DNA from: Halobacillus shinanisalinarum
GTDB lineage: Bacteria > Bacillota > Bacilli > Bacillales > Halobacillaceae
Reading direction: 5' to 3'
Assembly (NCBI RefSeq): GCF_022919835.1
Contig: NZ_CP095074.1
Span: 1,488,001 to 1,552,000, forward strand
DNA length: 64,000 nucleotides
Shown here: positions 37,884 through 61,077 of the stretch, piece after piece
Layout: every line of letters starts with the position of its first letter
How positions within the stretch are numbered: position 1 is the stretch's first letter
The notes under the pieces: model-generated
Seen by the model: only the letters and a program-made list of their open reading frames with translations
Told to the model about the DNA's origin: nothing
Databases searched by the model: none
Translations under genes and position numbers: made by a program

Positions 37884-37960
37884 TTGGCCCTACACATTAA
37901 GAAAAGCGCAATCCTTTGCTCCAGAATTGCGCCCCTTTAATTGAATAAAAATATATCTTG
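37884..37960. repeat. Dispersed hairpin element, copy 1
   Basis: GGCCC (37886) is followed by the stem GCGCAAT..ATTGCGC (37905-37932) and GCGCCCC. The right terminal repeat is poorly conserved. Same family as the complete copies at 45355, 53736 and 56189. Confidence 0.65.
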
Positions 37961-37962
37961 AT

Positions 37963-38064
37963 TTATTCAACTTTACTTGCTAATAAAATGTCTTTGATTT
38001 CGTCAACACTATTTACAATATGTGTAGGGATAGCGTCAGGAAAATGCGCATTTACAACGATAAG
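37963..38064 (-). pseudogene. C-terminal relic of a HAD-superfamily hydrolase
   Basis: A short reverse-strand frame ends PDAIPTHIVNSVDEIKDIL followed by a few residues and a stop. This resembles the tail of PpaX/PhnX-like HAD phosphatases (DAIPT.IV.S..E....L). It directly adjoins element copy 1. Confidence 0.45.
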
Positions 38065-38185
38065 CATTTTGATATAAAGTCTTATAAGACATAATATAGC
38101 CTAATTTCAAATAAAGGAAATATCTTCTTGACAGTCGAATATTAGCCTAGAACCATAATTAACTATTTCGATGAGGAGGATTCTT

Positions 38186-38695
38186 GTGCGTCCACGACCA
38201 TTATCTATTGAAAATCCAGAGTATGATAGGTATGTTAGTCTTGTGCCAGATGGAGATATTGAAGAAATACTTAGTAAGCAACGAACTAAGACCATTACCC
38301 TCTTGAGCAGCATATCAGAGGAGTCAGCAAGGAAGGCGTACGCACCAGGGAAATGGACTTTAAAAGAAGTGATTGGGCATATGGCCGACTCGGAACGTGT
38401 GATGTCGTATCGAATGCTTGCCATTGCACGAAATGAAAGTGCACCACTCCCAGCAATGGATCAGGATCAATACGTTTCTGCGGCAAACTTCAACAAATTA
38501 TCCTGGGAGCAGCTACTAGCTGGTTTAGACACGGTACGCTCCAACACGTTAAGTCTTATTTCAACCATTGATGAGGCAGCGTGGGATCGTAATGGAACTG
38601 TAATGAACAACCCAGTTTCGATAGGTACCTTTGCATATGGCATTGTCGGGCACGAGTTACACCATATGAAAGTGATTAGTGATAAATACTTATAA
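38186..38695 (+). CDS. DinB-family protein
   Basis: A 169-residue four-helix-bundle protein of the DinB/YfiT superfamily, whose members bind a divalent metal through three His residues and include bacillithiol-dependent transferases. Candidate ligands lie in TLKEVIGHMADSERVMSYR and in VGHELHHMKVI at the C-terminus. GTG 38186 is the start because AGGAGG lies 6 nt upstream; the earlier in-frame ATG overlaps this ribosome binding site. Single-gene unit ending at a strong terminator, one of three DinB-fold genes in the region. Confidence 0.82.
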   Translation: MRPRPLSIENPEYDRYVSLVPDGDIEEILSKQRTKTITLLSSISEESARKAYAPGKWTLKEVIGHMADSERVMSYRMLAIARNESAPLPAMDQDQYVSAANFNKLSWEQLLAGLDTVRSNTLSLISTIDEAAWDRNGTVMNNPVSIGTFAYGIVGHELHHMKVISDKYL

Positions 38696-38712
38696 GTCTT
38701 TTTCTATTAATG

Positions 38713-38756
38713 AAAAAACCTAATTTCTCATTTAATGCTGAGAAATTAGGTTTTTT
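38713..38756 (+). terminator. Strong bidirectional terminator
   Basis: AAAAAACCTAATTTCTCA pairs perfectly with TGAGAAATTAGGTTTTTT across an 8-nt loop; U tract on both strands. Confidence 0.92.
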
Positions 38757-38879
38757 AACTTCCTTAACGTTGTAAATCTGCATTTTCCTGACGCTACCCC
38801 TTGTTTTTACTATAGCACCCTTATCTTGACAGACTTGAATTGAGATAATTCTTTTTAGCTGCCTTTAATTTAAGTAATG

Positions 38880-39446
38880 TTAATTTACTTTGGAATAAAT
38901 ACAAGTGTCAGTCAGCTTGCTGCCATCTGCGGATAGAGCCTCATTCCTTAAAGTACCTTCAAATTCAAAGCCAAGCTTTTCCGGTATAAATTGACTTTTA
39001 AAGTTTCTTGATTCACATCTTATTTCAATTCTCTTAAATGCGAGGTGATTTAATCCGAAGTTAGCTAACTCCTTTACTGCTTCTGTCATATATCCATTAC
39101 CGCTATATTTTGTATTAATCCAGTATCCCGTTTCACATTTTGGAATGTCCCAGTCAATACCATGAAGGCTCGTAGTTCCAATAAAGTCCTTGCCGCCACC
39201 TTTATCAAAGATAAGATAGCGAAAACTTTCTCTTTTTAAAAAATTTATATGAGCATTCTTTAACAAAATCTCTGTTTCTTCAACAGTAGGAAGTTCTTGG
39301 AAAAGTGACAACCACGCTTTTAATTCACAAAAGGAATCCCTAATTGCTTGGTGTACAATTTCTTCGTCTCCAGTTTGAAGTGGTGCTCGAAGGATTAACC
39401 TTTCTGTTTCTAATTGTAAAGGAATATCTGATAACAAAGGATTCAT
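38880..39446 (-). CDS. GNAT-family N-acetyltransferase (RimJ/RimL type)
   Basis: A 188-residue acetyltransferase beginning PLQLETERLILRAPLQTGDEE, the standard RimJ-like start, with ETGYWINTKYSGNGYMTEAV as the acetyl-CoA-binding motif A region (Q/RxxGxG/A variant YSGNGY) and IEIRCESRNFKSQFIPEKLGF near the end. It would acetylate an amino group of a ribosomal protein, peptide or small molecule; the substrate is not predictable. ATG 39446 with AGGAGAGGG. Single-gene unit. Confidence 0.85.
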   Translation of the reverse strand: MNPLLSDIPLQLETERLILRAPLQTGDEEIVHQAIRDSFCELKAWLSLFQELPTVEETEILLKNAHINFLKRESFRYLIFDKGGGKDFIGTTSLHGIDWDIPKCETGYWINTKYSGNGYMTEAVKELANFGLNHLAFKRIEIRCESRNFKSQFIPEKLGFEFEGTLRNEALSADGSKLTDTCIYSKVN

Positions 39447-39667
39447 TTGATTTTCCCTCTCCTTGTTTATTTTAAATTAATAATTACCCCTTCCCACTTA
39501 CCGGAATTATATGGAAATAATAAATCAAAATTACTCTTTTCTTCACAGCCGTATGTATATTCTGTATTTATTAATAAAGCATTATATCCAAAGCAATAGG
39601 TTTAGTCAACGACTATTGTTATACAAATAGGTAAGGATTTGAAGTTATCGCCCCCTTTTCCCCCTGT

Positions 39668-39706
39668 TCACACCGCGCGTGCGACTTTCACCGCATACGG
39701 CGTTCC
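39668..39706 (-). ncRNA. Group II intron domain V relic
   Basis: On the reverse strand this reads GCCGTATGCGGTGAAAGTCG then CACGCGCGGTG. That is very close to the 34-nt catalytic domain V of bacterial group II introns (GAGCCGTATGCGGTGAAAG and onward to CACGTACGGTTC). No maturase ORF or other intron domains are present on either side, so this is an isolated 3' remnant. Confidence 0.65.
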
Positions 39707-39736
39707 AACTAATCCAACTCATTATTCCTTTAACCT

Positions 39737-39813
39737 GGCCCTTTTCATAAATAAAGAGCACAATCCTTACTTCAGAATTGCGCCCTTTTCATGAAGACTT
39801 GATTTCAAGATAA
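39737..39813. repeat. Dispersed hairpin element, copy 2
   Basis: GGCCC, then an imperfect GAGCACAAT..ATTGCGCCC hairpin, then the right terminal repeat GAAGACTTGATTTCAAGATA. It directly follows the group II intron relic. Confidence 0.7.
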
Positions 39814-39865
39814 TATTAATAACGATATTTCGATTTTGCCCCCGTTAGTTGAAGAAAGAAGCTAT

Positions 39866-40156
39866 TTATTTTTTGCCTTTCTTCCTTAATGATTGATATG
39901 TTTTTCTCATTCTTGCTAACCCTAAAGTGTAGCCTAATGAAATTAATATCATTACCCCAATAACAACTAAAGACTCTAAAAATGTTCCGTTTGCCATAAT
40001 GCTTATAACAAGTCCGAACCCTATCCCCATAAGAAGACTCGGAATAATTAATGCACCTTTTTTAGCCCCTTTATTTGTAAGGTATCTGGACAAAAATATT
40101 GCAATCGCAATAAATACAATAGTACATGAAACAAAAATTATTGCATCAGTTCTCAA
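39866..40156 (-). CDS. Small three-helix membrane protein, possibly YesK-like
   Basis: A 96-residue protein with three predicted membrane helices (about residues 5-22, 36-56, 62-80) and a very basic C-terminus (RMRKTYQSLRKKGKK). It starts at TTG 40156, 8 nt after GGAGG. Size and topology resemble YesK-type proteins of Bacillus, but I cannot confirm homology. No operon partner. Confidence 0.6.
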   Translation of the reverse strand: MRTDAIIFVSCTIVFIAIAIFLSRYLTNKGAKKGALIIPSLLMGIGFGLVISIMANGTFLESLVVIGVMILISLGYTLGLARMRKTYQSLRKKGKK

Positions 40157-40287
40157 CTAGAAAGCCTCCGTTTACTTATCTGCTTATTAAACTAAACCGC
40201 TTCGTTAGTTTAGGTACATCTCTTTACAAACTCCATCAATTTTAACATCCAAGTACGGAATTACCTATAAATTAGTTATTCTAGAAT

Positions 40288-40362
40288 ATGGCCCTTAAAT
40301 GTAAAAAGGACGCGTTATTCGATAAACGCGCCCTATAACCGAAGACTCGAATTCAAGGTAAT
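40288..40362. repeat. Dispersed hairpin element, copy 3 (variant stem)
   Basis: ATGGCCC, then stem GCGTT..AACGC (in place of GCGCAAT/ATTGCGC), GCGCCC and GAAGACTCGAATTCAAGGTA. The stem sequence differs from copy 2 but remains paired. Confidence 0.7.
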
Positions 40363-40389
40363 CTGAAGTATATCATGCAATATTCTATA

Positions 40390-40707
40390 TTAAACGTTAT
40401 ATCGTTTTGAAAGTTTTTCTTTATGTGCTTGGAACACGTCTTCTAAGGGAATATTATATTTATTCGCAATAATGACTAGATTTCCTAATACATCCCCTAA
40501 TTCTTCCGTTAACTCTTGTTTATTTTTTACATAAGACTCATCCCTTTCGTCTGGACGACCTCTCCCTATCTCAAGGGATCTTATGGCCCTAGCTACCTCT
40601 CCTGTTTCCTCAGCTAAAAAGCCAATCCGTATAAAAATATCTAACTCAGACCACCCTCTGGCTTCATAATATTCTTTAATCCATTGTTGAAATTCGGTAA
40701 CATCCAT
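40390..40707 (-). CDS. MazG-like nucleotide pyrophosphohydrolase
   Basis: A 105-residue all-helical protein with the MazG metal-binding pattern: LAEETGEVARAIR (ExxE) followed by ELTEELGDVLGNLVIIAN (ExxxD). It would hydrolyse non-canonical or excess nucleoside triphosphates to monophosphates. Start ATG 40707 after AAGGAGG. It is divergent from the LOG-family gene, with only 84 bp between starts. Confidence 0.85.
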   Translation of the reverse strand: MDVTEFQQWIKEYYEARGWSELDIFIRIGFLAEETGEVARAIRSLEIGRGRPDERDESYVKNKQELTEELGDVLGNLVIIANKYNIPLEDVFQAHKEKLSKRYNV

Positions 40708-40791
40708 TTTTACTCCTCCTTACATTAGCCATAGTTTACCAAAGGATTCTAAATTTTGTATAATACTCATGATGATTTCAGGAGGGATAAG

Positions 40792-41376
40792 ATGAAAAAA
40801 ATAGCTGTATTCTGTGGATCAAGCCCCGGAGCATCTGATGCTTATATAGAGGGGGCAAAAAAGCTAGGGAAAGAAATGGTTAAAAGAGATATCACTCTCG
40901 TCTATGGCGGTGCAAGCGTAGGCATGATGGGAGCCCTTGCAGATACGATCTTAGAAGAAGGTGGACACGTGATTGGTGTTATGCCTGACTTTCTAGAAAA
41001 AAGAGAAATAGCACATAAAGATCTAACTGAACTTATTGTCGTTGGATCTATGCATGAAAGAAAAACAAAAATGTCAGATCTAGCCGATGGATTTATTGCT
41101 TTACCAGGTGGTCCAGGAACTATGGAGGAGTACTTTGAAATTTTTACTTGGGCGCAATTAGGACTTCACCAAAAGCCATGTGGTCTTTTGAATGTTAATC
41201 GTTATTTTGATCCTCTTTTAGCTTTATTTAAGCATATGACTAAAGAGCAATTTCTAAATGAAAAGTATCTGTCCATAGCTTTATCAGAACCGAACCCATC
41301 TAGTTTGTTAGACCACTTTTATTCCTATGAACCGCCAAAAGTAAAGACTTATATCACTTCTAAAGATGAGACTTAA
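40792..41376 (+). CDS. LOG-family protein (cytokinin riboside 5'-monophosphate phosphoribohydrolase)
   Basis: A 194-residue Rossmann-like enzyme. IAVFCGSSPGASDAY is the family start, LVYGGASVGMMGALAD the nucleotide loop, MHERKTKM and LPGGPGTMEEYFE the LOG motifs. It would release adenine or a modified base from nucleoside 5'-monophosphates. Previously such proteins were annotated as lysine decarboxylase. ATG 40792 with AGGAGGG; an upstream extension to 40756 lacks a ribosome binding site. Ends at a strong terminator. Confidence 0.9.
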   Translation: MKKIAVFCGSSPGASDAYIEGAKKLGKEMVKRDITLVYGGASVGMMGALADTILEEGGHVIGVMPDFLEKREIAHKDLTELIVVGSMHERKTKMSDLADGFIALPGGPGTMEEYFEIFTWAQLGLHQKPCGLLNVNRYFDPLLALFKHMTKEQFLNEKYLSIALSEPNPSSLLDHFYSYEPPKVKTYITSKDET

Positions 41377-41381
41377 CACGA

Positions 41382-41420
41382 AAACACAGACCAAACAAAA
41401 ATTTTGGTCTGTGTTTTTTT
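41382..41420 (+). terminator. Terminator of the LOG gene
   Basis: AAACACAGACCAAA/TTTGGTCTGTGTTT stem with a T-rich tail, immediately after the stop codon. Confidence 0.9.
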
Positions 41421-41454
41421 GAAATAATAACGACAGGGTCTTCTTATTACGTAA

Positions 41455-41490
41455 TCGCGCCCGTTTCTATAATACTCGAATTCAAGATAA
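41455..41490. repeat. Dispersed hairpin element, right-half fragment
   Basis: TCGCGCCCGTTTCTATAATA followed by CTCGAATTCAAGATAA: only the GCGCCC and the right terminal repeat remain. Confidence 0.5.
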
Positions 41491-41666
41491 CTTGAATAAA
41501 TACCATTGAAATAATGATAGACCTCCCTCTACTTCTTCAATTCTTCACTTTATGATTTTTTTGTTTAGGTTCCCCCTTAGATTTTGCAGTAAAACTACCA
41601 AGAAAAAAACAACGTACAGGTACCAAATACCTGTTAATACACGTTAGTTTAAGAATAAAAACTCCT

Positions 41667-43046
41667 CTATAACCACGCTTTTCTTAAAAGTTTTACACCA
41701 AGTTCGATTTCATCATAAGAAAGACCACTAAACCCTAGTTTAATCATAGGTCTATCCGATTGGTTTTTTATGAAATAGATTGAAGTTGGCCGTACTTTAA
41801 CCCCATAAAGGAAAGCCTGCTCGACTAGCCATTCTTCTGAACACTCCAGATTTACCTTAATTAATACGTACAAACCGGACTGTTCGCCAATAATGGATAT
41901 ACTTTGCCCTAAATGTTTTTTTAATAAAGATACAAGGTGTTCCATTTTTCGTTTATAAACAAGGCGCATTCGCTTAATGTGCCGATTCCATTCCCCATTT
42001 TCCATAAATCTAGCCATTGTAAGTTGGCTAAAAAGTGAAGTTGAACTTTCGAAGTTCAGGAACTGATTTTTATAACGATTTAAAAGCTGCTTTGGTAACA
42101 CCATATAGATTAAACGTAGTCCTGGGAGAAAAGACTTTGAGAAATTCCCCAGATATATGACCCTTGTTGAATCAATAGAAGCGAGCGCTGGAAAAGGCCG
42201 TTGTGTATATCGAAACTCACTATCATAATCGTCTTCAATAATGTATCCCTGTACCTTATTTGCCCATTGAATGAGCGTTTGTCGTTGTTGAATAGGCATG
42301 CTTACACCGTATGGACTGTGATGAGAGGGTGTTACATAGATTAAGGCTGAATCCAGTTGGTTAAGTTGCGAAAGGTCTATACCCGCTGCATATACTGGCA
42401 AATATTCAAGCAAAAAGTGATGGAATTTAAAAGCTTCCCTGGCGCCATCGAACCCTGGATCTTCTACGATAATACCTGAGTAATCTTCCTTTAATATATG
42501 GCCTAGATGAATAAGCATTTGTTGTGTACTACTACCTATAATAATGGCATCTGCATCGGTTTTTACCCCACGTGATTGTAGTAAGTATGCGGCAATTTGT
42601 TCACGCAGACTCACCTCTCCAAAAGATTCTCCATACCGAAAGCTCTCAGGTAACGTTAAGACCTGATTCGCTATTCGTCTCCATATTTTTAAGGGAAAAT
42701 GGGATTGATCAACAGCATCTGTCCTAAAATCGACACGAACGGATTCTTTCTTTCTCCCCCTTTTTTTGTTAGGGAGGATTGGTGATTCCTGGTATAAAGA
42801 TGGCTCTAATAAATTGACAAAATAACCTTTTCGTCCTTCTCCGCGTATATAACCCTCCGCTACAAGTTGGTTATATGCCATTAGGGTTGTATTACGACTT
42901 ACTTGAAGAGAATCAGCAAGTTTTCGAATAGAGGGTAGTTGTTCATCAGCTTTCATATTGCCTTGTTCAATAAATGATTTAAACTGCTCGTAGATTTGTT
43001 TGTATTTGGGAGAGCTTTCGTTTAAGGCAAAAAGATAATTCTTCAT
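41667..43046 (-). CDS. MocR/GabR-type PLP-dependent transcriptional regulator
   Basis: A 459-residue fusion of an N-terminal GntR winged helix (LADSLQVSRNTTLMAYNQL, GRKGYFV) and a class I aminotransferase-like domain. The PLP lysine is in YLGNFSKSFLPGLR, with the upstream IIEDDYDSEFRY motif. Such regulators sense amines or pyridoxal derivatives. The gene is divergent from a PaiB-like protein with 130 bp between starts, so that neighbour is its probable target. ATG 43046 with AGGAGGG. Confidence 0.9.
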   Translation of the reverse strand: MKNYLFALNESSPKYKQIYEQFKSFIEQGNMKADEQLPSIRKLADSLQVSRNTTLMAYNQLVAEGYIRGEGRKGYFVNLLEPSLYQESPILPNKKRGRKKESVRVDFRTDAVDQSHFPLKIWRRIANQVLTLPESFRYGESFGEVSLREQIAAYLLQSRGVKTDADAIIIGSSTQQMLIHLGHILKEDYSGIIVEDPGFDGAREAFKFHHFLLEYLPVYAAGIDLSQLNQLDSALIYVTPSHHSPYGVSMPIQQRQTLIQWANKVQGYIIEDDYDSEFRYTQRPFPALASIDSTRVIYLGNFSKSFLPGLRLIYMVLPKQLLNRYKNQFLNFESSTSLFSQLTMARFMENGEWNRHIKRMRLVYKRKMEHLVSLLKKHLGQSISIIGEQSGLYVLIKVNLECSEEWLVEQAFLYGVKVRPTSIYFIKNQSDRPMIKLGFSGLSYDEIELGVKLLRKAWL

Positions 43047-43176
43047 AATTATATCCCTCCTGACATGCTTGATTATTTCATATTGTATCTTTTTAAATGT
43101 CAGTTTATATCATAGTATATTTTTATATGAACGTTAACATTTTTTCAAGCACGAAATTAGATGAGGAGTGATAATA

Positions 43177-43791
43177 ATGTATATTCCAAAGCACTTTGAA
43201 ATCAAAGATGAAAAAGCGATTTATGAGATTATTGAGGAAAACAGCTTCGCTACGCTATTTTCCCAACATCAGGGTCACCCGTATGCGACCCACCTTCCTT
43301 TGATTTTAGATAAAGAAAAAAGATATTTGTACGGTCACTTTGCAAAACCGAATAAGCAGTGGAGAGATATAGAAGAACAGGAGGTACTTGCCGTTTTTCA
43401 GGGGCCGCATTGTTATATCTCGTCTTCCTGGTATGAAACGAATAAAGCCGTTCCGACATGGAATTACGTAGCTGCTCATGTATACGGAAAGGTTGAGATC
43501 ATAGACGGGAGACAAATGATGGATTCCCTTCATCATATGGTATCGAAATATGAAGATCCAAATAGTTCTTATCAATGGGACCACTTGGATGCCCATTTTT
43601 TAGAAGGACAGGCAAAAGGCATTGTTGGGTTCAAAATCGAGATCGATAAAATTGAAGGAAAGGCAAAGTTGAGTCAAAATCATTCCCCTGAACGACTAAA
43701 GCTTGTTATTTCACAACTTGAACAATCCCCAAGTGAAGATGAGAGGGAAATTGCATCTCATATGAAAACAATTCTTAGAAAGAAATCTTGA
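43177..43791 (+). CDS. PaiB-family FMN-binding protein
   Basis: A 204-residue protein of the PaiB/transcriptional repressor-type flavin-binding split-barrel family: [18 protein letters not shown] at the start, [19 protein letters not shown], and [16 protein letters not shown], the conserved NY.AVH.YG pattern. In B. subtilis PaiB is linked to polyamine-related regulation. ATG 43177 is 8 nt after GAGGAG; an upstream GTG is less well placed. Divergent MocR-type regulator probably controls it; a Cys/Met-metabolism PLP enzyme follows 114 bp downstream. Confidence 0.85.
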
Positions 43792-43905
43792 AGGTACTCA
43801 AATGTACTCTTTGATGAACAAAACTTATTAAAATATCTCAATCAAAGCAGACAAAGCTTATGGATAAAAGATCATTTCAAAAATCTTTGAAAGCGAGGAA
43901 TATGT

Positions 43906-45042: not shown

Positions 45043-45084
45043 AACTTCAATCAGAGGGGATAATTCTTTCTTCCCCTCTGAATG

Positions 45085-45264: not shown

Positions 45265-45298
45265 GAACTGTGAACGGATATCGTTTCAAAATAAGATA

Positions 45299-45460
45299 TT
45301 ATCTCGAAACTGAGTCTTCCACTAAACTGCCCTTATCTGGAATAAATTTCACATTTATCTCGAATTCAAGTCTTCAAGATAATGGCCCGATACATTAATA
45401 AAAGCGCAATTCTTTGCTCCAGAATTGCGCCCTTATCATGAAGACTCAGTTTCAAGATAA
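45299..45460. repeat. Dispersed hairpin element, complete copy plus adjoining half copy
   Basis: The complete copy (45355-45460, 106 bp) has left terminal repeat TTATCTCGAATTCAAGTCTT, then AAGATAATGGCCC, the stem GCGCAATTC/GAATTGCGC (45403-45429), GCGCCC, and right terminal repeat GAAGACTCAGTTTCAAGATA. The termini match inversely at 16 of 21 positions. A second left terminus (45299-45319) precedes it. Positions 45327-45388 are repeated exactly at 53708-53769. Confidence 0.8.
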
Positions 45461-45538
45461 TTTTCCTCAAAGCAATTACCAAACTTCTATTAGCTGGTAT
45501 TATTTCCAGTAGGTAGGTCGTTTCATAAACGATAATCT

Positions 45539-46012
45539 TCAATTGAGTAATAAATTATAATAAAAATGTTCCGCGTCTTTCTCATACCCAATTAATTCAT
45601 ATAAATGTTGTGCCTTGTGATTGTCGCTAGCTGTTTCAAGTGTTAATTCTTTTGCACCTGTTTCTAAGGCGTGTTCCTTTGCTTTTTGCATTAAGCTCTT
45701 AGCTACTCCACTTCGCCTCGCAGATTGATCAACATACAGGTCATTTAATATCAATATTTTTGCTAGATTGACTGATGAAAAGGATGGATAAAGCTGAACA
45801 AATCCTAATGGTCTTACAGAGCTTGCTTGTTTTTCGATTGCTAAAAAAATCACAGATTGTTGATTTTCCATTCTTTCACGAATAAACTTTTTTCCTTCCT
45901 CTAAGTTTGATGGTTGTTCGTAAAAGACCCGATATTTGTCAAAAAGGTCGGCAACTAAATCTATTTGATCTAGGTCTGCTTTCATAAGTACAATGTTTTC
46001 ATCGTTAGTCAT
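45539..46012 (-). CDS. GNAT-family N-acetyltransferase
   Basis: A 157-residue acetyltransferase. The acetyl-CoA-binding region is LYVDQSARRSGVAKSLMQKA (RxxGxA), followed by LTLETASDNHKAQHLYELIG, the typical motif B. Substrate unknown. ATG 46012 after TAGGAGGG. A 22-bp sequence AACTTCTATTAGCTGGTATT (45484 onward) between its stop and the repeat element recurs at 51273, suggesting that the repeat unit extends beyond the hairpin element here. Confidence 0.85.
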   Translation of the reverse strand: MTNDENIVLMKADLDQIDLVADLFDKYRVFYEQPSNLEEGKKFIRERMENQQSVIFLAIEKQASSVRPLGFVQLYPSFSSVNLAKILILNDLYVDQSARRSGVAKSLMQKAKEHALETGAKELTLETASDNHKAQHLYELIGYEKDAEHFYYNLLLN

Positions 46013-46195
46013 ATTATTTTCCCTCCTACTTTATGAAAATCTTAAGCCTTAGTTAGCCAAAACGTCTTTGACCTTCGTAATTATTCGAGATATGCGCCCC
46101 TTTTCTGGAACAACTCCATTTGACATTAAACATGTAATTCTTGATTTTCGTTTTTCCATAGTGGCCTTCATTCTTCGAATCGTTTCCGTACCCCT

Positions 46196-46300
46196 TTATT
46201 TTCTATCTTTAAAAGTAATAAAGACCGCAAAGGAAAATAATAAGAATATAACAATACCAACACCTATCAATACGTTAATAATCAATTCAATAAAAATCAC
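46196..46300 (-). CDS. Possible single-helix small membrane protein
   Basis: A 34-codon frame starting at GTG 46300 (AGGA about 9 nt upstream): one long hydrophobic helix (IELIINVLIGVGIVIFLLFS) and a basic end (TFKDRK). Length and layout fit many uncharacterised Bacillus small membrane proteins. No family identified. Confidence 0.35.
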   Translation of the reverse strand: MIFIELIINVLIGVGIVIFLLFSFAVFITFKDRK

Positions 46301-46407
46301 CCTAACTAATCCTGCTGAAATTATGTAATAATCTCACTCTTTCTTATTTTTTCTTAATAACAATTATTTCAAATTCCTATCAATTGCACAATATGTTACT
46401 CCAGAAT

Positions 46408-46485
46408 ACTGCCATTCATGCAAAAAGCGCAAATCCTTTATTCCTGAAATGCGCCCGTTTGCAGAAGACTCGATGTCAAGATAAA
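46408..46485. repeat. Dispersed hairpin element, copy 5
   Basis: Stem GCGCAAATCC/CCTGAAATGCGC (imperfect), GCGCCC, then GAAGACTCGATGTCAAGATA as right terminal repeat. The left part is degenerate. Confidence 0.65.
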
Positions 46486-47595: not shown

Positions 47596-47616
47596 TAAAT
47601 CATACAAATACGAAAG

Positions 47617-47668
47617 AAGGGCGCTCACCCTTACTCAAAGAAAGCGCCCGATCGTATACTTGAAGACA
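47617..47668. repeat. Dispersed hairpin element, copy 6 (variant stem)
   Basis: Stem GGGCGCT/AGCGCCC with a different loop, followed by GATCGTATACTTGAAGACA. The left terminal repeat is absent. Confidence 0.6.
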
Positions 47669-51060: not shown

Positions 51061-51144
51061 CTAATGTATAATATCATCTTCTTATTGTCAAGTTTAATCT
51101 AAAATTTTTTTGACATGTTCTTTGTTTATCTCTTCTTCAAGAAA

Positions 51145-51216
51145 ATGGCCCTATTCAAAAGGACGCGTTAATCGATAAACGCGCCCTCGTAGCAGAAGAC
51201 TTGGTACCAAGATAAT
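51145..51216. repeat. Dispersed hairpin element, copy 7 (variant stem)
   Basis: ATGGCCC, stem GCGTT/AACGC as in copy 3, GCGCCC, then GAAGACTTGGTACCAAGATA. The 22-bp AACTTCTATTAGCTGGTATT motif follows at 51273. Confidence 0.7.
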
Positions 51217-51823: not shown

Positions 51824-51860
51824 TAAAATCCCTCCGATTTGTCGTTTATCCTTATTGGAT

Positions 51861-51890
51861 AAAAGCGCCCGTTTGCTTAACAAAGTATAA
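51861..51890. repeat. Dispersed hairpin element, short fragment
   Basis: AAAGCGCCCGTTTGCTTAAC only; this matches the GCGCCCGTTTGC part of copy 5. Confidence 0.4.
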
Positions 51891-53679: not shown

Positions 53680-53842
53680 TTATCTCGAAATCATGTCTTC
53701 AATAAACCTGCCCTTATCTGGAATAAATTTCACATTTATCTCGAATTCAAGTCTTCAAGATAATGGCCCTATTCATGCATAAAAAGCACAAATCCTTTAT
53801 TCCGGAAAGCGCCCTATTCTTCAAGACTCGATATCAAGATAA
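53680..53842. repeat. Dispersed hairpin element, complete copy plus adjoining half copy
   Basis: Complete copy at 53736-53842: left terminus TTATCTCGAATTCAAGTCTT, AAGATAATGGCCC, imperfect stem around AGCACAAATCC/GGAAAGCGC, GCGCCC, right terminus AAGACTCGATATCAAGATAA. As at 45299, a further left terminus (53680-53700) precedes it. The two composite loci share 62 identical bases. Confidence 0.8.
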
Positions 53843-54879: not shown

Positions 54880-54897
54880 CTCGTCACCCCACCTCCC

Positions 54898-55299
54898 TTA
54901 ACTACAGGTACCACTTTCCTGAATTTTATCATAACAATCGGACCATGTTAGACATTTACAGGATAGTCCCTTTTGTAAAATATTGATCATTAAATCCATT
55001 TGTCTCTTCTTTTCCTCTAACTCTGAACGTTTCCATTCCGCCATGCGTTTCCAGTTTTCTGATGGTGGATGTTGGTCACTAAACCCCTCTACTAGCGCAG
55101 CAATCTCCTTATTGTTAAAGCCAACCAATTGGGCTGTTTTAATGAATTTTAATTGATGAACAACATCTGGGATGTAACGCCTTTTACCACTTAAGCGCTC
55201 AGGTTCAGGTAGGACCCCTATAGACTCGTAGTATCTAATAGCTGAAGAGCTAACACCTGATTCTTTTGCAAGCTCCCCAATAGACAGTTTAGATTTCAT
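54898..55299 (-). CDS. MerR-family regulator with C-terminal cysteine cluster
   Basis: A 133-residue regulator. The MerR HTH is SIGELAKESGVSSSAIRYYE with YESIGVLPEPERLSGKRRY. A dimerisation helix follows, and the C-terminus carries four cysteines (LSCKCLTWSDCYDKIQESGTC), suitable for a metal, metalloid or [2Fe-2S] site. Divergent from two small membrane-protein genes; the 20-bp dyad at 55317-55336 lies between -35 and -10 of their promoter, the MerR mode of control. It is followed by the ACR3-like gene. Confidence 0.88.
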   Translation of the reverse strand: MKSKLSIGELAKESGVSSSAIRYYESIGVLPEPERLSGKRRYIPDVVHQLKFIKTAQLVGFNNKEIAALVEGFSDQHPPSENWKRMAEWKRSELEEKKRQMDLMINILQKGLSCKCLTWSDCYDKIQESGTCS

Positions 55300-55313
55300 T
55301 TTTTTATCACCTC

Positions 55314-55341
55314 TTGACTTAAAGTTTACTTTAAGTATTAT
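55314..55341 (+). promoter_or_regulatory. MerR-type promoter/operator
   Basis: TTGACT (55314-55319) and TATTAT (55336-55341). The spacer holds a perfect 9-2-9 dyad ACTTAAAGT-TT-ACTTTAAGT (55317-55336). The dyad centred between the promoter hexamers is the standard MerR binding position. Confidence 0.78.
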
Positions 55342-55371
55342 GCTTTAGCAAAAGAAAAGGGGGAGTTACAT

Positions 55372-55590
55372 TTGAAGAGAACAATAGCAGGCGTAAGTGG
55401 CGCAAGTTTGTGCGTGTTATGTTGTGCGTTTCCTACCATATTTATAGGACTCGCAGGAATGATAGGAATCAGTACTGGATTTTGGAAATGGGGAGTTCTA
55501 CTCCTTTTCTTATCCTTTATTATATTTCTAGTCACAAGCAGGAATAAAAACTGTAAGAGTAATTCAAGTTGTAATTGCTCAAGTTCATGA
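55372..55590 (+). CDS. Small Cys-rich membrane protein, MerT/MerF-like pattern
   Basis: A 72-residue protein with two membrane helices. The first has ASLCVLCCAFPTIFIGLAG, with vicinal cysteines before a Pro as in the first helix of mercury transporters MerT/MerF. The C-terminus is Cys-rich (NCKSNSSCNCSSS). It starts at TTG 55372 after GGGGGAG, directly downstream of the MerR-controlled promoter. It may bind or move a thiophilic metal or metalloid; the family is not certain. Confidence 0.65.
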   Translation: MKRTIAGVSGASLCVLCCAFPTIFIGLAGMIGISTGFWKWGVLLLFLSFIIFLVTSRNKNCKSNSSCNCSSS

Positions 55591-55624
55591 AATACAAAGA
55601 AGAAATCTTAATGGGGGTTGGAAC

Positions 55625-56068
55625 ATGAAAACCAAACGATTATGGAAAGGATTCGGTTGGGGGATTGTAGCAACTTTTGTGATGTCTATAGTGATGATTA
55701 TCGGAAAAGCGACTGGTTTAGCTCCTATGCCGGAGCCAATACCTATTGCTACTGTTAAAAACATCTTTGGAGGAGGGCCCAAGCCACTACTCATCCTGTT
55801 AGGGATCTTTTCCCATTTCTTTTATGGGGGTATATTCGGAGCCTTGCTGACTCAATTGTTTAAGCCCGTAACGATTAAAAAAGGAATCGGGTTAGGCATC
55901 ATTCTATGGTTTGTGATGCAAATCATCCTCCTCCCCTTCATAGGTTGGGGTGTATTTGGAAGTGGAATGACTTTAAAAATTGCTATAGCCACTCTTATTT
56001 TACACCTCATCTACGGTGGGACACTAGGATGGATTACGGATAAACAGTTAACAACATCTATTTCATAA
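55625..56068 (+). CDS. Four-helix membrane protein, YagU/DUF1440- or DUF6789-like
   Basis: A 147-residue membrane protein with four helices: WKGFGWGIVATFVMSIVMII, a FGGGPKPLLILLGIFSHFFYGGIFGAL middle (in part: LLILLGIFSHFFYGG), and LILHLIYGGTLGWITDK. The repeated H..YGG motifs are typical of a family of uncharacterised proteins found with metal-resistance or quinol-linked genes. It is co-transcribed with the Cys-rich protein 34 bp upstream. ATG 55625 after GGGGG. Function unknown. Confidence 0.65.
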   Translation: MKTKRLWKGFGWGIVATFVMSIVMIIGKATGLAPMPEPIPIATVKNIFGGGPKPLLILLGIFSHFFYGGIFGALLTQLFKPVTIKKGIGLGIILWFVMQIILLPFIGWGVFGSGMTLKIAIATLILHLIYGGTLGWITDKQLTTSIS

Positions 56069-56103
56069 TAAGTGTACTTTTATTTTCATAAACAGCTCCT
56101 AAA

Positions 56104-56136
56104 ACAAAAATGGGCACCTGACTCTTACAAGTGCCC
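56104..56136 (-). terminator. Hairpin terminator
   Basis: GGGCAC/GTGCCC stem with 13-nt loop; T-rich tail on the reverse strand. It could end transcripts from either side. Confidence 0.5.
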
Positions 56137-56188
56137 TGCTTCCTACAATCCTTTGAAACAATAGAATCTAATTTTGGAATTTTTAATA

Positions 56189-56297
56189 TTATGAAATCAA
56201 GTCTTCAAGATAATGGCCCTATCGTATAAATGAAAAATAAGCGCTAATCCTTATTAAAGAATAGCGCCCTTTTCAGGAAGACTTGATTTCAAGATAA
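56189..56297. repeat. Dispersed hairpin element, complete copy (variant stem)
   Basis: Left terminus ATGAAATCAAGTCTTC, AAGATAATGGCCC, stem GCGCTA/TAGCGC, GCGCCC, right terminus GAAGACTTGATTTCAAGATA. The inner stem carries paired changes relative to the 45.4-kb copy. Confidence 0.8.
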
Positions 56298-56367
56298 TCC
56301 AATATGTTCTTAACGCAAAAACACCCGTTCGTATTCCGGAATAAGATATCGTCCCTAGGAACTATTT

Positions 56368-56448
56368 CTATCTCTTAAAAAACAGTAAAAGGGATATGAA
56401 CATCAATACAATTCCAGCAATACGATAGATATTTATCGGTGTACTCAT
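56368..56448 (-). CDS. Possible small membrane protein
   Basis: A 26-codon frame (MSTPINIYRIAGIVLMFISL, then LLFFKR) starts at ATG 56448 with GGGAG 7 nt upstream. One hydrophobic helix with a basic end, like many Bacillus small membrane proteins. No family identified. Confidence 0.4.
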   Translation of the reverse strand: MSTPINIYRIAGIVLMFISLLLFFKR

Positions 56449-56557
56449 TTTTTCACTCCCTTCATCAAAACAGGGCTTCTTCAGAACAAAATTCATATCT
56501 TTATGCTATTTCTATTTACTTTCGAAAAGTCCTTCCCCTTATTCCATTGGACCTTTT

Positions 56558-56600
56558 CGCGCAAATCCTCTATTCCGGAAATGCGCCCTATTCCTGTATA
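56558..56600. repeat. Dispersed hairpin element, hairpin-only fragment
   Basis: CGCGCAAATCCTCTATTCCG followed by GAAATGCGCCCTATTC. No terminal repeats are recognisable. Confidence 0.5.
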
Positions 56601-56786
56601 GCTGGCAGACTTTGCTTGGTTTTTAAGCACATAATTCCTGCCCCCTTATGTCCTTGATGCCTAGGCGTTTTAAACAAATGATAAGAAGAAAACAAAAAAA
56701 TAACTGTTTACAATATCGATTCATTAATATATAGTTGATTACACAACTAATCAACCCATCAACGAAATGGGAGGAAGGAGGTTTTT

Positions 56787-57155
56787 GTGAAAGCTGTTTT
56801 TGATGACTCCAGGCCAATCTTCCAGCAAATTTCAGAAATGATTGCTGATGATATTGTTGATGGTGAGTTGCGTGAAGGAGATCAAATTCCCTCAACAACA
56901 GAGATTTCTAAATTTTATCAAGTGAACCGCGCAACGGTGCAAAAAGGCTTATCAATGCTCGTTGATGCAGGTTATGCATATAAACAGCGTGGCGTTGGGA
57001 TGTTTATAGCTAAAGGGGCTAAAAGCCGGTTGCTTGCTGAACGTAAAAAAGATTTTCACCTTCAATATCTCAAACCATTGCTGGAAGAAGCAAAGCGAAT
57101 TCAGATGACGAAAGAGGAAATTATTCGATTTATTGAGGAGGACAACGATGATTGA
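56787..57155 (+). CDS. GntR-family regulator, YtrA type
   Basis: A 122-residue regulator: DDSRPIFQQISEMIADDIVD, the winged helix STTEISKFYQVNRATVQKGL, and a short C-terminal helix (about 75-115) instead of a ligand domain, the YtrA subfamily form. GTG 56787 follows AAGGAGG. It overlaps the ABC ATPase gene by 8 nt, so it is the first gene of a GntR-ATPase-permease operon like B. subtilis ytrABC, and probably represses it unless envelope stress or a peptide antibiotic is sensed (inference from family). Confidence 0.87.
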   Translation: MKAVFDDSRPIFQQISEMIADDIVDGELREGDQIPSTTEISKFYQVNRATVQKGLSMLVDAGYAYKQRGVGMFIAKGAKSRLLAERKKDFHLQYLKPLLEEAKRIQMTKEEIIRFIEEDNDD

Positions 57156-58029
57156 TATTCACAACTTATCGTTTTCATATGGGGATGTAACAGCGCTCGA
57201 AAAGGTTACGTTACAGGAGGACAAACCGATTATTACAGGATTGTGGGGACGTAATGGCTCTGGAAAAACAACGTTGATGAAATTGATTTCCGGACTAGAA
57301 AAACCCAATCAAGGAAAGATTAATGTGAACGGGATCAATCCCTATAACAACAAAGAGGCGATGAATCATGTGACTTTTATGCAAGAAAACCACCCATTTT
57401 CAGACTTATGGGACGTAGAAGATGCCCTTCGTTTTGGTGCATTTTTCAATAAAAACTGGGATCAGAAGTTAGGCGACGAATTAATTGATATGTTTGAATT
57501 ACCAAGGAAAAAGAAAATCAAGCAATTTTCAAAAGGGATGCAGACAATGATTAAGATTACACTTGGGCTAGCCAGTAAATCACCAGTAACGATCATGGAT
57601 GAACCTTCCAACGGCCTAGATGCTCATATGCGTAAGCAGTTTTATGACGTACTGCTCGATAGTTACGAGGAACATCCCCGATTAATTATGCTGTCAACAC
57701 ACCACATTGATGAACTTGAACCACTCTGTGAAAAAATTGCAGTGGTTGATCAGCAAACGATTATTCGGTATGAAGAAATAGAGAAATTGAAGAATTATGG
57801 CGTTCACTTGTCGGGATCAGTAGAGTCAGTGGAATCACTGTTTGGAAATAGCAAGATCATTGACAAACGTAAACTTGGGAAGCAAATGAATGTCATGATT
57901 GATGAGCCTTTCAATGCAGACTGGGAGAGACGGGCAAAAGAGGTTGGAGTTAACATCGAAAAAGCACCACTTCAGGATTATCTCGTTAATCTAACAAAAA
58001 AGGAGGGCAAAAAATATGAACACGCTTAA
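57148..58029 (+). CDS. ABC transporter ATP-binding protein
   Basis: A 293-residue ATPase with Walker A GLWGRNGSGKTTLMKLI, signature QFSKGMQTMIKITLGLA, Walker B VTIMDEPSNGLDA and H-loop STHHIDELE. The C-terminal ~80 residues form an accessory region as in YtrB/BcrA-type exporters. Start ATG 57148 is 7 nt after GAGGAGG, overlapping the regulator gene. It pairs with the permease gene, which overlaps its 3' end by 14 nt. Confidence 0.9.
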   Translation: MIDIHNLSFSYGDVTALEKVTLQEDKPIITGLWGRNGSGKTTLMKLISGLEKPNQGKINVNGINPYNNKEAMNHVTFMQENHPFSDLWDVEDALRFGAFFNKNWDQKLGDELIDMFELPRKKKIKQFSKGMQTMIKITLGLASKSPVTIMDEPSNGLDAHMRKQFYDVLLDSYEEHPRLIMLSTHHIDELEPLCEKIAVVDQQTIIRYEEIEKLKNYGVHLSGSVESVESLFGNSKIIDKRKLGKQMNVMIDEPFNADWERRAKEVGVNIEKAPLQDYLVNLTKKEGKKYEHA

Positions 58030-58720
58030 AGGACCGTTTCTACTCATGTTTAAAGAGATGCGGATGACTTTTTATATCAACTTTGGAATAACGATCGCTT
58101 TAATGGCATTGTATATTTTTTTAAGTTACTCAACTGGTGAGAACGGAAATTTAGGTTCAATCTTCGGCCCTTTTTATGCCGTTTTTCTCATTTATCCATT
58201 TATTCTTTTTCAAGGGTACAAATATATTCTTTCCTTGGGCGGAACGAGAAGACAGTTTATGATGGCAACCTTTGCATCTGTTAGCATCTATATGGTGCTA
58301 AGCGTGCTCATTCTAAATGGATTACATCTATTAAGCCAATTTTTTATCGATCAAGGGCAAATCTTTCATATGGCCGACCTCGTTAACGGCTCTCATCCGC
58401 TATTATATATCTGGATTGATCTATTATGGATGCTTTTTCTCTTTGGCGTTGGGATAATGATTAAAACCATTTGGTTTAACCTCGGCAATGTAAGAACCTT
58501 AATTTGTGGAGCCATATTGTTGATCGTATTAATTACAACATACACTTTTGCTGACCTTAGCCCATTTATAGAATTTGTGATTGTTGATCATCTCTTATTT
58601 GTCCACATTCTTGCAGGGATCGCAGTATTATTCATGCTGCTCTCTTACCTCATCATGAAAAATGGACCATTAGAACGTGGAGATAGGGCTAGATTCATTG
58701 GGAAACAGCAACCTGAATAA
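58016..58720 (+). CDS. ABC transporter permease (ABC-2-like)
   Basis: A 234-residue protein with six predicted membrane helices: FYINFGITIALMALYIFL at the start, FYAVFLIYPFILFQGYKY, MMATFASVSIYMVLSVLIL, and further helices to LFMLLSYLIMKNGPLE. It is the membrane partner of the upstream ATPase; the unit resembles ytr-type exporters or lantibiotic-detoxification transporters. Substrate unknown. It is followed by a strong terminator at 58750. Confidence 0.8.
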   Translation: MNTLKGPFLLMFKEMRMTFYINFGITIALMALYIFLSYSTGENGNLGSIFGPFYAVFLIYPFILFQGYKYILSLGGTRRQFMMATFASVSIYMVLSVLILNGLHLLSQFFIDQGQIFHMADLVNGSHPLLYIWIDLLWMLFLFGVGIMIKTIWFNLGNVRTLICGAILLIVLITTYTFADLSPFIEFVIVDHLLFVHILAGIAVLFMLLSYLIMKNGPLERGDRARFIGKQQPE

Positions 58721-58749
58721 GCGTTTTTAGAGTAATTAGTAGTTATTTG

Positions 58750-58777
58750 AAGGTTACCGAAATTGGTAACCTTTTTT
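58750..58777 (+). terminator. Terminator of the GntR-ABC operon
   Basis: AAGGTTACC/GGTAACCTT stem with six T. Confidence 0.9.
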
Positions 58778-58965
58778 GATTGGAAATAAAAATACGCTTC
58801 TTCATCGAACCTGTCTTAATTTAACAAACAAACAGCTCCTGACCCAGTAGCCGGTGTTCCACAATATGGCCCTTTAGCGAGATAACAAGGTAAACTTTCA
58901 TAGCAGCTTTACCGGTTGTTTAAAACAGTCCCTGCGCCATTTTTTGAACAAGTTTCAGTGATCAT

Positions 58966-59442
58966 CTATCCAAATAGTCCTCTGTCAATGAGATTCGCTG
59001 TAACAGGCTTGCGTCCTATTTCTCGTGACCATACAGATAATTGACCGATGTGGTGGATTTCGTGGGCGATGACATGGCGCATAATTTCCCCGTATTTGAA
59101 GCTGAATGTTTCACCATTGGAATCAGTTTCCGCAAGTTTCAGCTCTTCCATTTCGTCCGTCCAGGATGTCACAAATGATTCTACTTCTCTATGATATTGG
59201 CTTGAAAGAGCCTTCACTTTGGATAAGCTTGCATAGGCTTCAAACGGTGGTTCTTCAGGTTCTGACTTGCCTTGTAGGCCGCAAATCCAACTGTACTCGA
59301 CTTCCACGATGTGAAACAGGGTATATAGAATGCTGCCAATTCCACCTCCCCTTTTTTCCAATAATTCTTCTTCTGGAACCGTTTCACACCATGTAAACCA
59401 GTCAGCTCTGACTTGCCAATTGTATTCAAATAATTTCAGCAT
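58966..59442 (-). CDS. DinB-family protein (YfiT/DUF664-like)
   Basis: A 158-residue DinB-fold protein with LYTLFHIVEVEYSWICGLQG (first His), and MRHVIAHEIHHIGQLSVWS, the HxxHHxGQ-type metal cluster of bacillithiol transferase-like proteins. ATG 59442 follows GGAGGT; the frame open to 59556 lacks a ribosome binding site. This is the third DinB-fold gene in the region. Confidence 0.85.
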   Translation of the reverse strand: MLKLFEYNWQVRADWFTWCETVPEEELLEKRGGGIGSILYTLFHIVEVEYSWICGLQGKSEPEEPPFEAYASLSKVKALSSQYHREVESFVTSWTDEMEELKLAETDSNGETFSFKYGEIMRHVIAHEIHHIGQLSVWSREIGRKPVTANLIDRGLFG

Positions 59443-59562
59443 AACAATGTTACCTCCACCATTCTTTTTAGACAACTTTGACCTTATAATAGGTTCTTTA
59501 ATGAGTCTCTTAAATCCTTTATTTTCTTTTTCATAAAAGAGAACTTGATTATTCAATTGTCT

Positions 59563-59612
59563 GGCCCAATACAGGAAGACGCGTTTTAGAATACGATCGC
59601 GCCCTATAGTTT
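59563..59612. repeat. Dispersed hairpin element, partial copy
   Basis: TGGCCCAATACAGGAAGACG, then a degraded GCG..CGC stem and GCGCCC. The right terminus is missing. Confidence 0.5.
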
Positions 59613-59645
59613 AAGTGTATTTCTTCACAAACTCTATTAGAAATA

Positions 59646-60056
59646 CTATTTATTAATAACAATAGATAGTTTATAGTTTGCATGCTCATTTAAATCTTCC
59701 AAAAATTTATTTAATATTTCATTAGATGGAAATTTGCATTCAAGAAGGTAACAACCATCTCCACTAATTTTATAGTTATTTATAATGTATTGTTCTTGTG
59801 TTTTTATAAATGAGATATAAGGTTGATGATGAATACTTTGTGTAATGATCGTAATAAAGGCATGTACAAAACACCCTAATTTGACTTGGTTAACCTTTAT
59901 CGTATACCCCTCAATCACACCATTGTCTTCTAGTTTGGCTACTCTATCTGAAGCAGCTTGTCCAGTCAAATGGACTTTCTCACCCAATTCTTTCATGGTG
60001 ATACGACTGTTAATGGATAGTTCATCTAGGACACGCATATCTGTGCTATCTAACAT
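59646..60056 (-). CDS. Lrp/AsnC-family transcriptional regulator
   Basis: A 136-residue regulator. The HTH is DMRVLDELSINSRITMKELG with KVHLTGQAASDRVAKLED; the C-terminal RAM ligand domain is of the usual beta-alpha-beta form (KISGDGCYLLECKFPSNEIL). It is divergent from the MBL hydrolase gene with 117 bp between starts, a likely regulatory target. ATG 60056 with AAAGG upstream. Confidence 0.85.
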   Translation of the reverse strand: MLDSTDMRVLDELSINSRITMKELGEKVHLTGQAASDRVAKLEDNGVIEGYTIKVNQVKLGCFVHAFITIITQSIHHQPYISFIKTQEQYIINNYKISGDGCYLLECKFPSNEILNKFLEDLNEHANYKLSIVINK

Positions 60057-60173
60057 TTTTCAAATCCTTTCAGATATCAAGTCGAACGGCAAAAAGACTT
60101 GATTTCATCCATGTATTTCTTCATTGAGGATAATATAAAATAAAATGTAAATGAAAGCAAAGGAGTTATAACC

Positions 60174-60935
60174 ATGAATATACAACAAATTCGCAATGCA
60201 ACTCTGATTGTTAAATATGCGGGGAAAAAATTCTTAATAGATCCATTTTTAGCGGAAAAGGGTACGTACCCTCCTTTTCCGGATTCCGCAAGACAAGATC
60301 AAAATAATCCTTTAGTTAGCTTACCGACTTCCATTGATAATATTATTAATAATGTTGATGCCGTCATTGTTACTCATCTTCATTTAGATCACTGGGATGA
60401 TGTTGCCAAAGAGGTACTTCCAAAAGATATAAAATTGTTTGCCCAAAATGAAGACGATGCTTCAGAAATCCAGAACGGTGGTTTTAAAAACGTGGAAGTT
60501 TTACAAGAAGACACCGTCTTTGAAGATATCCAGTTAATTAAAACAAAAGGCGAACATGGCAGAGGGGAAATACTAAAACTTGCTGGTCTAGTATGTGGAG
60601 TTGTCTTTAAACACTCAAACGAGAAAACTTTATATATAGGTGGAGATACTGTTTGGTATGATGAAGTTCAGAAAGAAATCCAAACACACAAACCAGAAAT
60701 CATTGTAGTAAATGCTGGAGATAATCAATTCCTAGAAGGGGGTTCTCTAGTAATGGGCAAAGATGATGTTTATGAAGTGCATAATGCTGCCCCTAACGCA
60801 AAAATTATTGCTAGTCATATGGAAGCTGTTAATCATTGGACACTATCAAGAGAAGAACTAAAAAACTTTATAATTGAAAAAGGAATCTCCTCTAATATTT
60901 TGGTGCCGGAAGACGGAGAATCATACTCACTTTAA
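60174..60935 (+). CDS. MBL-fold metallo-hydrolase (UlaG/YtkL-like)
   Basis: A 253-residue metallo-beta-lactamase-fold enzyme. The metal motif VIVTHLHLDHWDD is near residue 65; a second region LYIGGDTVWYDEVQ provides the bridging Asp, and IIASHMEAVNHW the last His. Family members hydrolyse phosphodiesters or lactones; substrate unknown. ATG 60174 with AAGGAG. It is divergent from an Lrp-type gene. Confidence 0.85.
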   Translation: MNIQQIRNATLIVKYAGKKFLIDPFLAEKGTYPPFPDSARQDQNNPLVSLPTSIDNIINNVDAVIVTHLHLDHWDDVAKEVLPKDIKLFAQNEDDASEIQNGGFKNVEVLQEDTVFEDIQLIKTKGEHGRGEILKLAGLVCGVVFKHSNEKTLYIGGDTVWYDEVQKEIQTHKPEIIVVNAGDNQFLEGGSLVMGKDDVYEVHNAAPNAKIIASHMEAVNHWTLSREELKNFIIEKGISSNILVPEDGESYSL

Positions 60936-61000
60936 ATGTTAATTAAGTGATTAAACAGAGTTACTACGTGCCTCGTAGTAATATACATTAGGGCTAAACC

Positions 61001-61077
61001 TTTTGCTTCAGATTTGCGCCCGTCGGAATAATATTTTTTAACATTATCTCGAAATCAAGTCTTCAAGATAATGGCCC
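61001..61077. repeat. Dispersed hairpin element, two opposed fragments
   Basis: A right-half piece (GATTTGCGCCCGTCGGAATA, 61011 onward) is followed by a left-terminus copy TTATCTCGAAATCAAGTCTT continuing to AAGATAATGGCCC (61044-61077). Confidence 0.65.

Follow-up and report, generated by a model that had tools for sequence, protein, structure and literature searches.

A 64,000-nucleotide stretch of the Halobacillus shinanisalinarum genome (NZ_CP095074.1, positions 1,488,001 to 1,552,000; "the window" below) carries, between about 36 and 61 kb, a family of intergenic repeats of about 106 bp, and the question raised by this locus is what these repeats are and what moves with them. A sequence-only reading had suggested that they could be non-autonomous mobile elements or nucleic acid hairpins. 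From comparison of the window with related genomes, we consider it very probable that recombination in an integron-like cassette system of Bacillales takes place at these repeats, as its sites, and that they belong to a system whose likely enzyme is a tyrosine recombinase of 280 residues that is neither XerC/XerD nor IntI. As proposed here, a cassette would consist of one to a few genes and one hairpin site, and cassettes would be swapped by site-specific crossover at the hexamer GCGCCC.

Hairpin sites and the boundaries of gene cassettes

A GNAT gene is carried by the segment at 45,423 to 46,466 of the window, and a second copy of this segment, 99.3% identical, lies at 3.438 Mb of the same genome. 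To the left, the flanks of the two copies are unlike as far as the core hexamer GCGCCC and alike from the core on; on the right side, the sequences are alike as far as GCGCCC and unlike beyond it. Several segment pairs from different genomes part at GCGCCC in a similar manner, others less cleanly, and a cassette of about 0.5 kb was found in three arrays with unlike neighbours, its left end coinciding with the core in all three and its right-end site being recognised in one. Match ends were scored for 85 matches of at least 80% identity and at least 250 bp, with the intron, the insertion sequence (IS) IS110 and the open reading frame (ORF) families of a presumed IS21-like pair removed. In this set, 65 of 162 scored ends lay within 60 nt of a core, a count of ends that are not independent because matches share cassettes. 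These site-near ends concentrate at the hexamer: 15 of 31 left ends fall between −4 and +7, and 15 of 34 right ends between 0 and +10. For nine right ends, at −27 to −50, the GGCCC that precedes the hairpin may have been used instead, comparable to the hairpin-less site at 61,044. Since near-identical gene segments in different arrays repeatedly start and stop at GCGCCC, the comparisons indicate that cassettes are exchanged by site-specific crossover at this hexamer, at the foot of the hairpin.

The link to mobility that the sequence-only reading had drawn is thereby retained in altered form: what appears to move is the DNA that lies, with its genes, between one element and the next, the element itself serving as the recombination site. 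The boundaries cluster at GCGCCC within the element and not at its outer ends. The transferred units also differ from a miniature inverted-repeat transposable element (MITE), that is, a terminal-repeat element moved by a parent transposase, in that they span core to core and include genes.

The elements themselves were detected with a profile built from nine window copies and then iterated over DNA fetched from several genomes. Seventeen were found in the window, all within 37,873 to 61,101, so that the repeat family is real, and the three copies previously called complete (45,355 to 45,460, 53,736 to 53,842 and 56,189 to 56,297) match their earlier description. GCGCCC is present in 14 of the 17, always on the + strand, although some of the 14 are partial (46,081; 51,848; 56,548); the other three (45,299; 53,680; 61,044) are hairpin-less, near-palindromic sites with an ambiguous strand call. 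The hexamer occurs 16 times on + and twice on − between 35 and 62 kb, compared to 0 and 2 times between 1 and 35 kb; extra sites at 36,089 and 61,016 were found by eye. As for the parts said to be shared, GCGCCC with its hairpin arm and GAAGACTYGAWTTCAAGATAA are the commoner ones, but the left "terminus" occurs in few copies only, and the copies are only about 65% alike. The hairpin-less site at 45,299 resembles sites adjoining recombinase genes of relatives, and the 105-base stretch starting there is 89% identical to that starting at 53,680. The features of the window are as follows (bits are profile scores; the cores and cargo families close the list).

36089–61101, +: putative cassette array (co-oriented recombination sites and intervening genes), from the GCGCCC count and the profile
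37873–37947, +: hairpin site without right arm, core 37929 (46 bits)
39731–39813, +: hairpin site with right arm, core 39780 (66 bits)
40277–40361, +: hairpin site, core 40328 (63 bits)
41425–41490, +: partial hairpin site, core 41457 (41 bits)
45299–45346, strand ambiguous: hairpin-less attI-like near-palindromic site, core CTGCCC (27 bits)
45355–45460, +: complete hairpin site with two arms, core 45427 (68 bits)
45423–46466, +: GNAT-gene cassette with a GCGCCC boundary at each side, from comparison with the copy at 3.438 Mb
46081–46112, +: weak or degenerate site within the GNAT cassette, core 46094 (17 bits)
46400–46484, +: hairpin site, core 46451 (56 bits)
47608–47666, +: hairpin site, core 47644 (20 bits)
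51134–51215, +: hairpin site, core 51181 (49 bits)
51848–51882, +: partial site, core 51865 (18 bits)
53680–53727, strand ambiguous: hairpin-less attI-like site, from the profile
53736–53842, +: complete hairpin site with two arms, core 53809 (57 bits)
56186–56297, +: complete hairpin site, core 56264 (65 bits)
56548–56601, +: partial site, core 56583 (19 bits)
59550–59615, +: hairpin site, core 59599 (20 bits)
61016–61101, strand ambiguous: GCGCCC site (61016), then hairpin-less attI-like site (61044–61101; 35 bits)
38171–60935, mixed orientation, mostly −: cargo genes, from Pfam
GCGCCC cores: 36089, 37929, 39780, 40328, 41457, 45427, 46094, 46451, 47644, 51181, 51865, 53809, 56264, 56583, 59599, 61016
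Cargo by Pfam: DinB (3), GNAT, MazG, LOG-type, FMN_bind_2, Cys/Met pyridoxal-phosphate enzyme, flavin reductases, ABM, MFS, TetR, cupin, SBF, MerR, ABC, AsnC, beta-lactamase-fold hydrolase

The confinement of the elements to 36 to 61 kb, correct within the window, does not extend to the genome. Using model R1, at least 133 clustered matches at an expect value (E) of 1 or less were obtained along the whole 4.89 Mb, the scored set being 150 out of 1550 candidates, a count that takes in overlapping opposite-strand matches of palindromic sites. When the genome and its relatives were searched together, 22 of 31 genomes, the window's own included, had R1 matches at E ≤ 0.001. A stricter DNA pattern gave 46 matching stretches in named genomes, in genera that we take to be Bacillales and that include Halobacillus, Thalassobacillus, Virgibacillus, Pontibacillus, Rossellomorea, Cytobacillus, Peribacillus, Lysinibacillus and Sporosarcina; elements were also sought in phages, with no match. 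In genomes G011 and G016 there are, besides arrays, many scattered matches to model positions 45 to 92 only, perhaps another dispersed repeat of that genus.

In 763 kb of five genomes, 301 elements were counted after removal of overlaps, many of them 0.3 to 4 kb apart, and each array has one main element orientation. With the position of dnaA as reference, and counting in the retrieved stretches those elements that score 20 bits or more, orientation matched the replichore for 85 of 101 elements in G000, 70 of 73 in G007 and 37 of 48 in G006. Of 326 array genes of at least 100 residues, 251 read against the direction of the element. The cargo is diverse: 96 array proteins, out of 110 from the window and G007 with mobile-element and some other ORFs set aside, matched 124 Pfam families, the commonest (GNAT, DinB) with at most six members each, and seven PADLOC profiles matched array proteins, with one or two members each. 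At one chromosomal site, seven elements in G000 correspond to 28 in G007, between flanks that are 76% and 90% identical. A protein family of 96 to 106 residues with no Pfam match recurs at seven array positions of G000, G006 and G007 (e.g., L048:17337-17657).

The DNA hairpin proposed earlier is supported. Using DNA parameters, the foot GCGC was paired in 239 of 407 anchored elements compared to 676 of 2035 shuffles, and the mean folding energy was −5.1 against −3.0 in shuffles. A partner-swap test was used in place of a base-paired covariance model: among 206 non-redundant elements, the arm paired with its own upstream partner at 5.85 of 9 positions and, after swapping, at 5.36 of 9 (standard deviation, 0.05), with none of 200 swaps as high as the own partner. 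By this measure, the hairpin arms covary. The elements had earlier been assigned to no named family, and at the gathering threshold Rfam gives none for them either.

A 280-residue tyrosine recombinase family at the arrays

A search of array ORFs with a set of tyrosine recombinases showed that one family of these enzymes recurs within or at the end of arrays of several genera. Among 397 genomes of the order, 90, from 46 of 135 genera, have a match at E ≤ 1e-55 to its intact reference member, P0001 of Pontibacillus marinus. At least 50% identity to P0001 was seen in 78 of these genomes, some with fragments or stops; the remaining 12 have matches of 39 to 49% only, often in longer proteins, which may be another family. 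The XerC/XerD-type proteins of the same genomes are about 26 to 38% identical to the 280-residue recombinase, and phage-borne relatives at most about 37%. Among plasmids, 21 records matched P0001, six of them at 60 to 80% identity. One plasmid (L211, CP053689.1), named as Arthrobacter citreus NEB 577, shares its recombinase coordinates with G379:C2, from a genome placed in the window's order; that species name looks wrong.

The IntI profile TIGR02249, applied to P0001 alone, scored 103.1 against a cut-off of 265, and the best profile was NF040815 (XerA/"integron integrase"), with 220.4 against a cut-off of 220. Profile offsets imply that about 39 residues are absent in P0001 between TIGR02249 positions 180 and 233, where we take the I2 domain to lie; the recombinase thus appears to be without the profile region expected to hold this IntI-specific domain. 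I2 is said to be unknown outside IntI integrases (PMC4792948). The best solved relatives of P0001 by sequence are XerA and XerD, with IntI4 lower, and six residues assigned as catalytic are invariant in all 34 intact family members. A tree separates two subfamilies and the Xer rows, with low support (65/88, 56/14, 60/94) and long branches that meet.

At the G045 locus, fourteen co-oriented elements are followed by the recombinase gene and no element lies in the 14.6 kb beyond it, to the contig end; the G032 locus is its mirror image, and the arrangement in G040 agrees with it. Elements of at least 12 bits were found at 24 of 36 family loci (about 3.8 kb each, 131 kb together; L182 and L183 are identical and two loci are from profile-training genomes) compared to 0 of 11 control loci, which cover 41 kb around weaker, mostly XerC/XerD-type matches and include some from genomes without demonstrated arrays. 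With higher cut-offs of 15, 20 and 25 bits, the numbers of family loci with an element were 20, 16 and 12.

In several relatives, the recombinase gene stands at the array end, and 3′ of it come a terminator-like hairpin, a conserved promoter-like sequence directed into the array, and an attI-like site. In subfamily A (about 72% identity or more to P0001; subfamily B, 62 to 66%), TGAAATAAT lies downstream of the recombinase stop in 14 of 25 loci, two of them identical, and a TTG stands exactly 17 bases before its −10 hexamer in all 14 and in a decayed G006 copy. The 20-mer around this sequence, a motif chosen from the same loci, turns up within 220 bp at 13 of the 25 loci, as against 55 matches on both strands of 1.53 Mb of array DNA. 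GGCAGG comes next in at least seven subfamily-A loci (L143 to L146, L187, L188 and L197), and in L143 to L146 this site stands between the 21-base arms of the window elements, i.e., as an element minus its hairpin. In L053, the leader passes directly into GGGGCGC and the hairpin, as expected after cassette insertion. In subfamily B, a GCnCCC-GTTAG-like sequence, with variants, lies 3′ of the gene in most loci. Altogether, these comparisons show that the recombinase family is associated with the arrays and that the leader is conserved, and the gene and its attI-like site adjoin the array in G045 and G032 and, less cleanly, in G040 and G009. We infer that these sites are the substrate of the 280-residue recombinase. 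By analogy with integrons, a hairpin site folded from one strand would recombine with the double-stranded attI-like site, and in one of the two subtypes the cassettes nearest to the promoter-like sequence would be expressed from it.

Many subfamily-A loci (L184, L187, L188, L190 and others) also have an element about 115 to 270 bases 5′ of the recombinase gene, which may thus be part of a cassette itself. A search of the window gave no match to the recombinase family, and elsewhere in its genome a piece of 66 residues is left at 4.113 Mb, close to where another array ends; because only this fragment is kept there, the arrays of this genome look orphaned, and they may now be inactive or depend on an enzyme acting in trans.

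Inserts and rival explanations

A group II intron of 2.7 kb, which encodes a reverse transcriptase of 624 residues, is present as nearly identical copies, five in the stretches taken from G006 (two of them within a duplicated 8.4-kb segment) and four in those from G007. Copies in hairpin sites lie in L053, L054, L055, L056, L060, L061, L063 and L064, and in nine of nine junctions read the intron 5′ end comes directly after GGGC or GGGG of the site. For IS110, both copies with a read junction begin at GCGCCC, in the same orientation (L054:14262-15873 and L063:7217-8829). The sole Rfam match in the window at the gathering threshold is a group II intron end (RF00029), a 3′-end remnant at 39,621 to 39,705 on the − strand, adjoining the 39.7-kb site.

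Several findings count against a cassette system driven by the 280-residue recombinase. No recombination was observed. In the match-end set, 97 of the 162 ends lie more than 60 nt from any site. The foot of the hairpin, at 239 of 407, has to be set beside 676 of 2035 in shuffles, and RNAalifold gave no useful consensus fold, one run yielding no pair and the other an unconvincing fold without covariation. The replichore rule fits the G006 arrays less well, 11 of 48 elements being contrary. At 12 bits, 12 of 36 family loci have no element, and at 25 bits only 12 have one; the array status of some control genomes, the low tree support and the lack of a recombinase match in the window, beyond the 66-residue piece elsewhere in its genome, point the same way. 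Further elements occur from 14 kb past the gene in G040, the nearest strong element in G009 is 11 kb from the gene, and the subfamily B elements are oriented the opposite way relative to it.

Some of these points would suit an explanation in which RecA-dependent recombination or template switching acts between hairpin repeats spread earlier in a MITE-like manner, with the recombinase as a bystander. The repeats are numerous and have short identical stretches in common, most match ends are away from sites, and the window's genome has no intact recombinase of the family. Against this, the copies are only about 65% alike, and such repeats are short for homologous recombination; the ends cluster at one hexamer and not across 106 bp, and each array keeps a single orientation. 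We regard this explanation as improbable.

It is a little less probable still that another enzyme (the IS110 recombinase, the group II intron machinery, a single-copy RAYT-type transposase or XerC/XerD on hairpins) moves the cassettes and that the 280-residue family is common cargo. In its favor, IS110 and intron copies stand exactly at the core, and G007 has 71 matches, yet no intact family member was found there by the searches made. The IS110 and intron copies break up the sites, as inserts do, and it is the 280-residue family that the attI-like leader adjoins. A RAYT-like Y1 transposase gene is single in the five genomes of the genus Halobacillus searched (e.g., L127:2938-3492), which could suit a driver of this kind; it was rejected because, besides being single-copy, it has no elements beside it in the six stretches L127 to L132 and was not found in G016, which bears arrays, or in G018. 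Two further candidates, a phage/integrative and conjugative element-type integrase (L037:5859-6809) and the L044 recombinase trio, were set aside as cassette enzymes, as elsewhere in arrays they have only weak or fragment matches. The latter locus (L044:3183-6741), adjoining the array at 3.43 Mb, has two or three consecutive tyrosine-recombinase ORFs, presumably Tn554-like, and a DUF6262 gene.

It is very unlikely that the main role of the elements is that of intrinsic terminators or processed RNA hairpins, with an orientation that follows from that of the genes: on the strand of most array genes (251 of 326) a T-rich stretch often follows the hairpin, seen as an A-run of at least four on the element strand in 229 of 407 (a figure without a control), but a terminator scan of 37.8 to 57.7 kb was at chance level (16 sites against 15.7 in shuffles, only three overlapping elements), and exact cassette boundaries and attI-like sites would be left unexplained. 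A terminator role additional to that of a recombination site is possible.

Comparison with integrons and other known systems

A search by title and start of abstract, with preprints and most subscription journals outside its scope, found no publication on such a system. Beyond a cassette system as such, we lean toward the view that Bacillales have an integron class of their own, independently assembled from a Xer-type recombinase without I2 and GCGCCC hairpin sites, with two polarity subtypes and with cassettes across genera and plasmids, which may resemble a precursor state of IntI integrons. If true, much accessory gene flow in Bacillales would be accounted for by a second, widespread solution that uses another recombinase, and Gram-positive bacteria would have a gene-capture platform of their own. 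Two questions would also become testable: whether hairpin sites can be recombined by a Xer-like enzyme that lacks I2, and how cassettes and integrons originate.

Other known systems share single features with the one proposed. The bcr1 and other Bacillus stem-loop repeats, compared by description only, are likewise intergenic stem-loops of about 70 to 170 bp, whereas the description consulted has nothing on cassettes (PMC2267715). Repetitive extragenic palindromic (REP)/RAYT systems combine hairpins with a single-copy Y1 transposase, as several genomes here do, but the RAYT gene here does not adjoin elements. In XerCD-dependent integration of phage CTX, a Xer-type enzyme works on a hairpin (PMC4792948), as the enzyme here would; CTX, however, encodes no recombinase and forms no cassette arrays. 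The window arrays resemble clusters of attC sites lacking integrases (CALINs) in being sites without an intact recombinase, but by sequence these sites are not attC.

Integrons, which are reported from many phyla, Firmicutes included (PMC8618304), come closest in the features compared here. Both have arrays of small adaptive-type genes with co-oriented hairpin sites and crossover at one core, and a tyrosine recombinase with an attI or attI-like site at the array end; facing the array, integrons have the Pc promoter and the system here a promoter-like sequence. Both kinds of site also take up group II introns and IS elements. Insertion of IS1111-type elements at attC is known for integrons. Group IIC introns are described at integron attC sites (PMC7923331). 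The differences concern the enzyme, the core and polarity. By profile the recombinase here is not IntI, and it is without the region where I2 is expected. The integron attC core is RYYYAAC/GTTRRRY, whereas the core here is GCGCCC and, in the consensus of 407 anchored elements, GTTRRRY does not appear where the crossover falls. Read in the direction of the genes, the hairpin here stands at the cassette start and not after the gene, and in subfamily A the recombinase reads with the cassettes. Finally, in sedentary chromosomal integrons the attC bottom strands lie predominantly on the leading-strand template, according to PMC8946536, and the orientation counts above place the element strand on the leading-strand template for most elements of G000 and G007.

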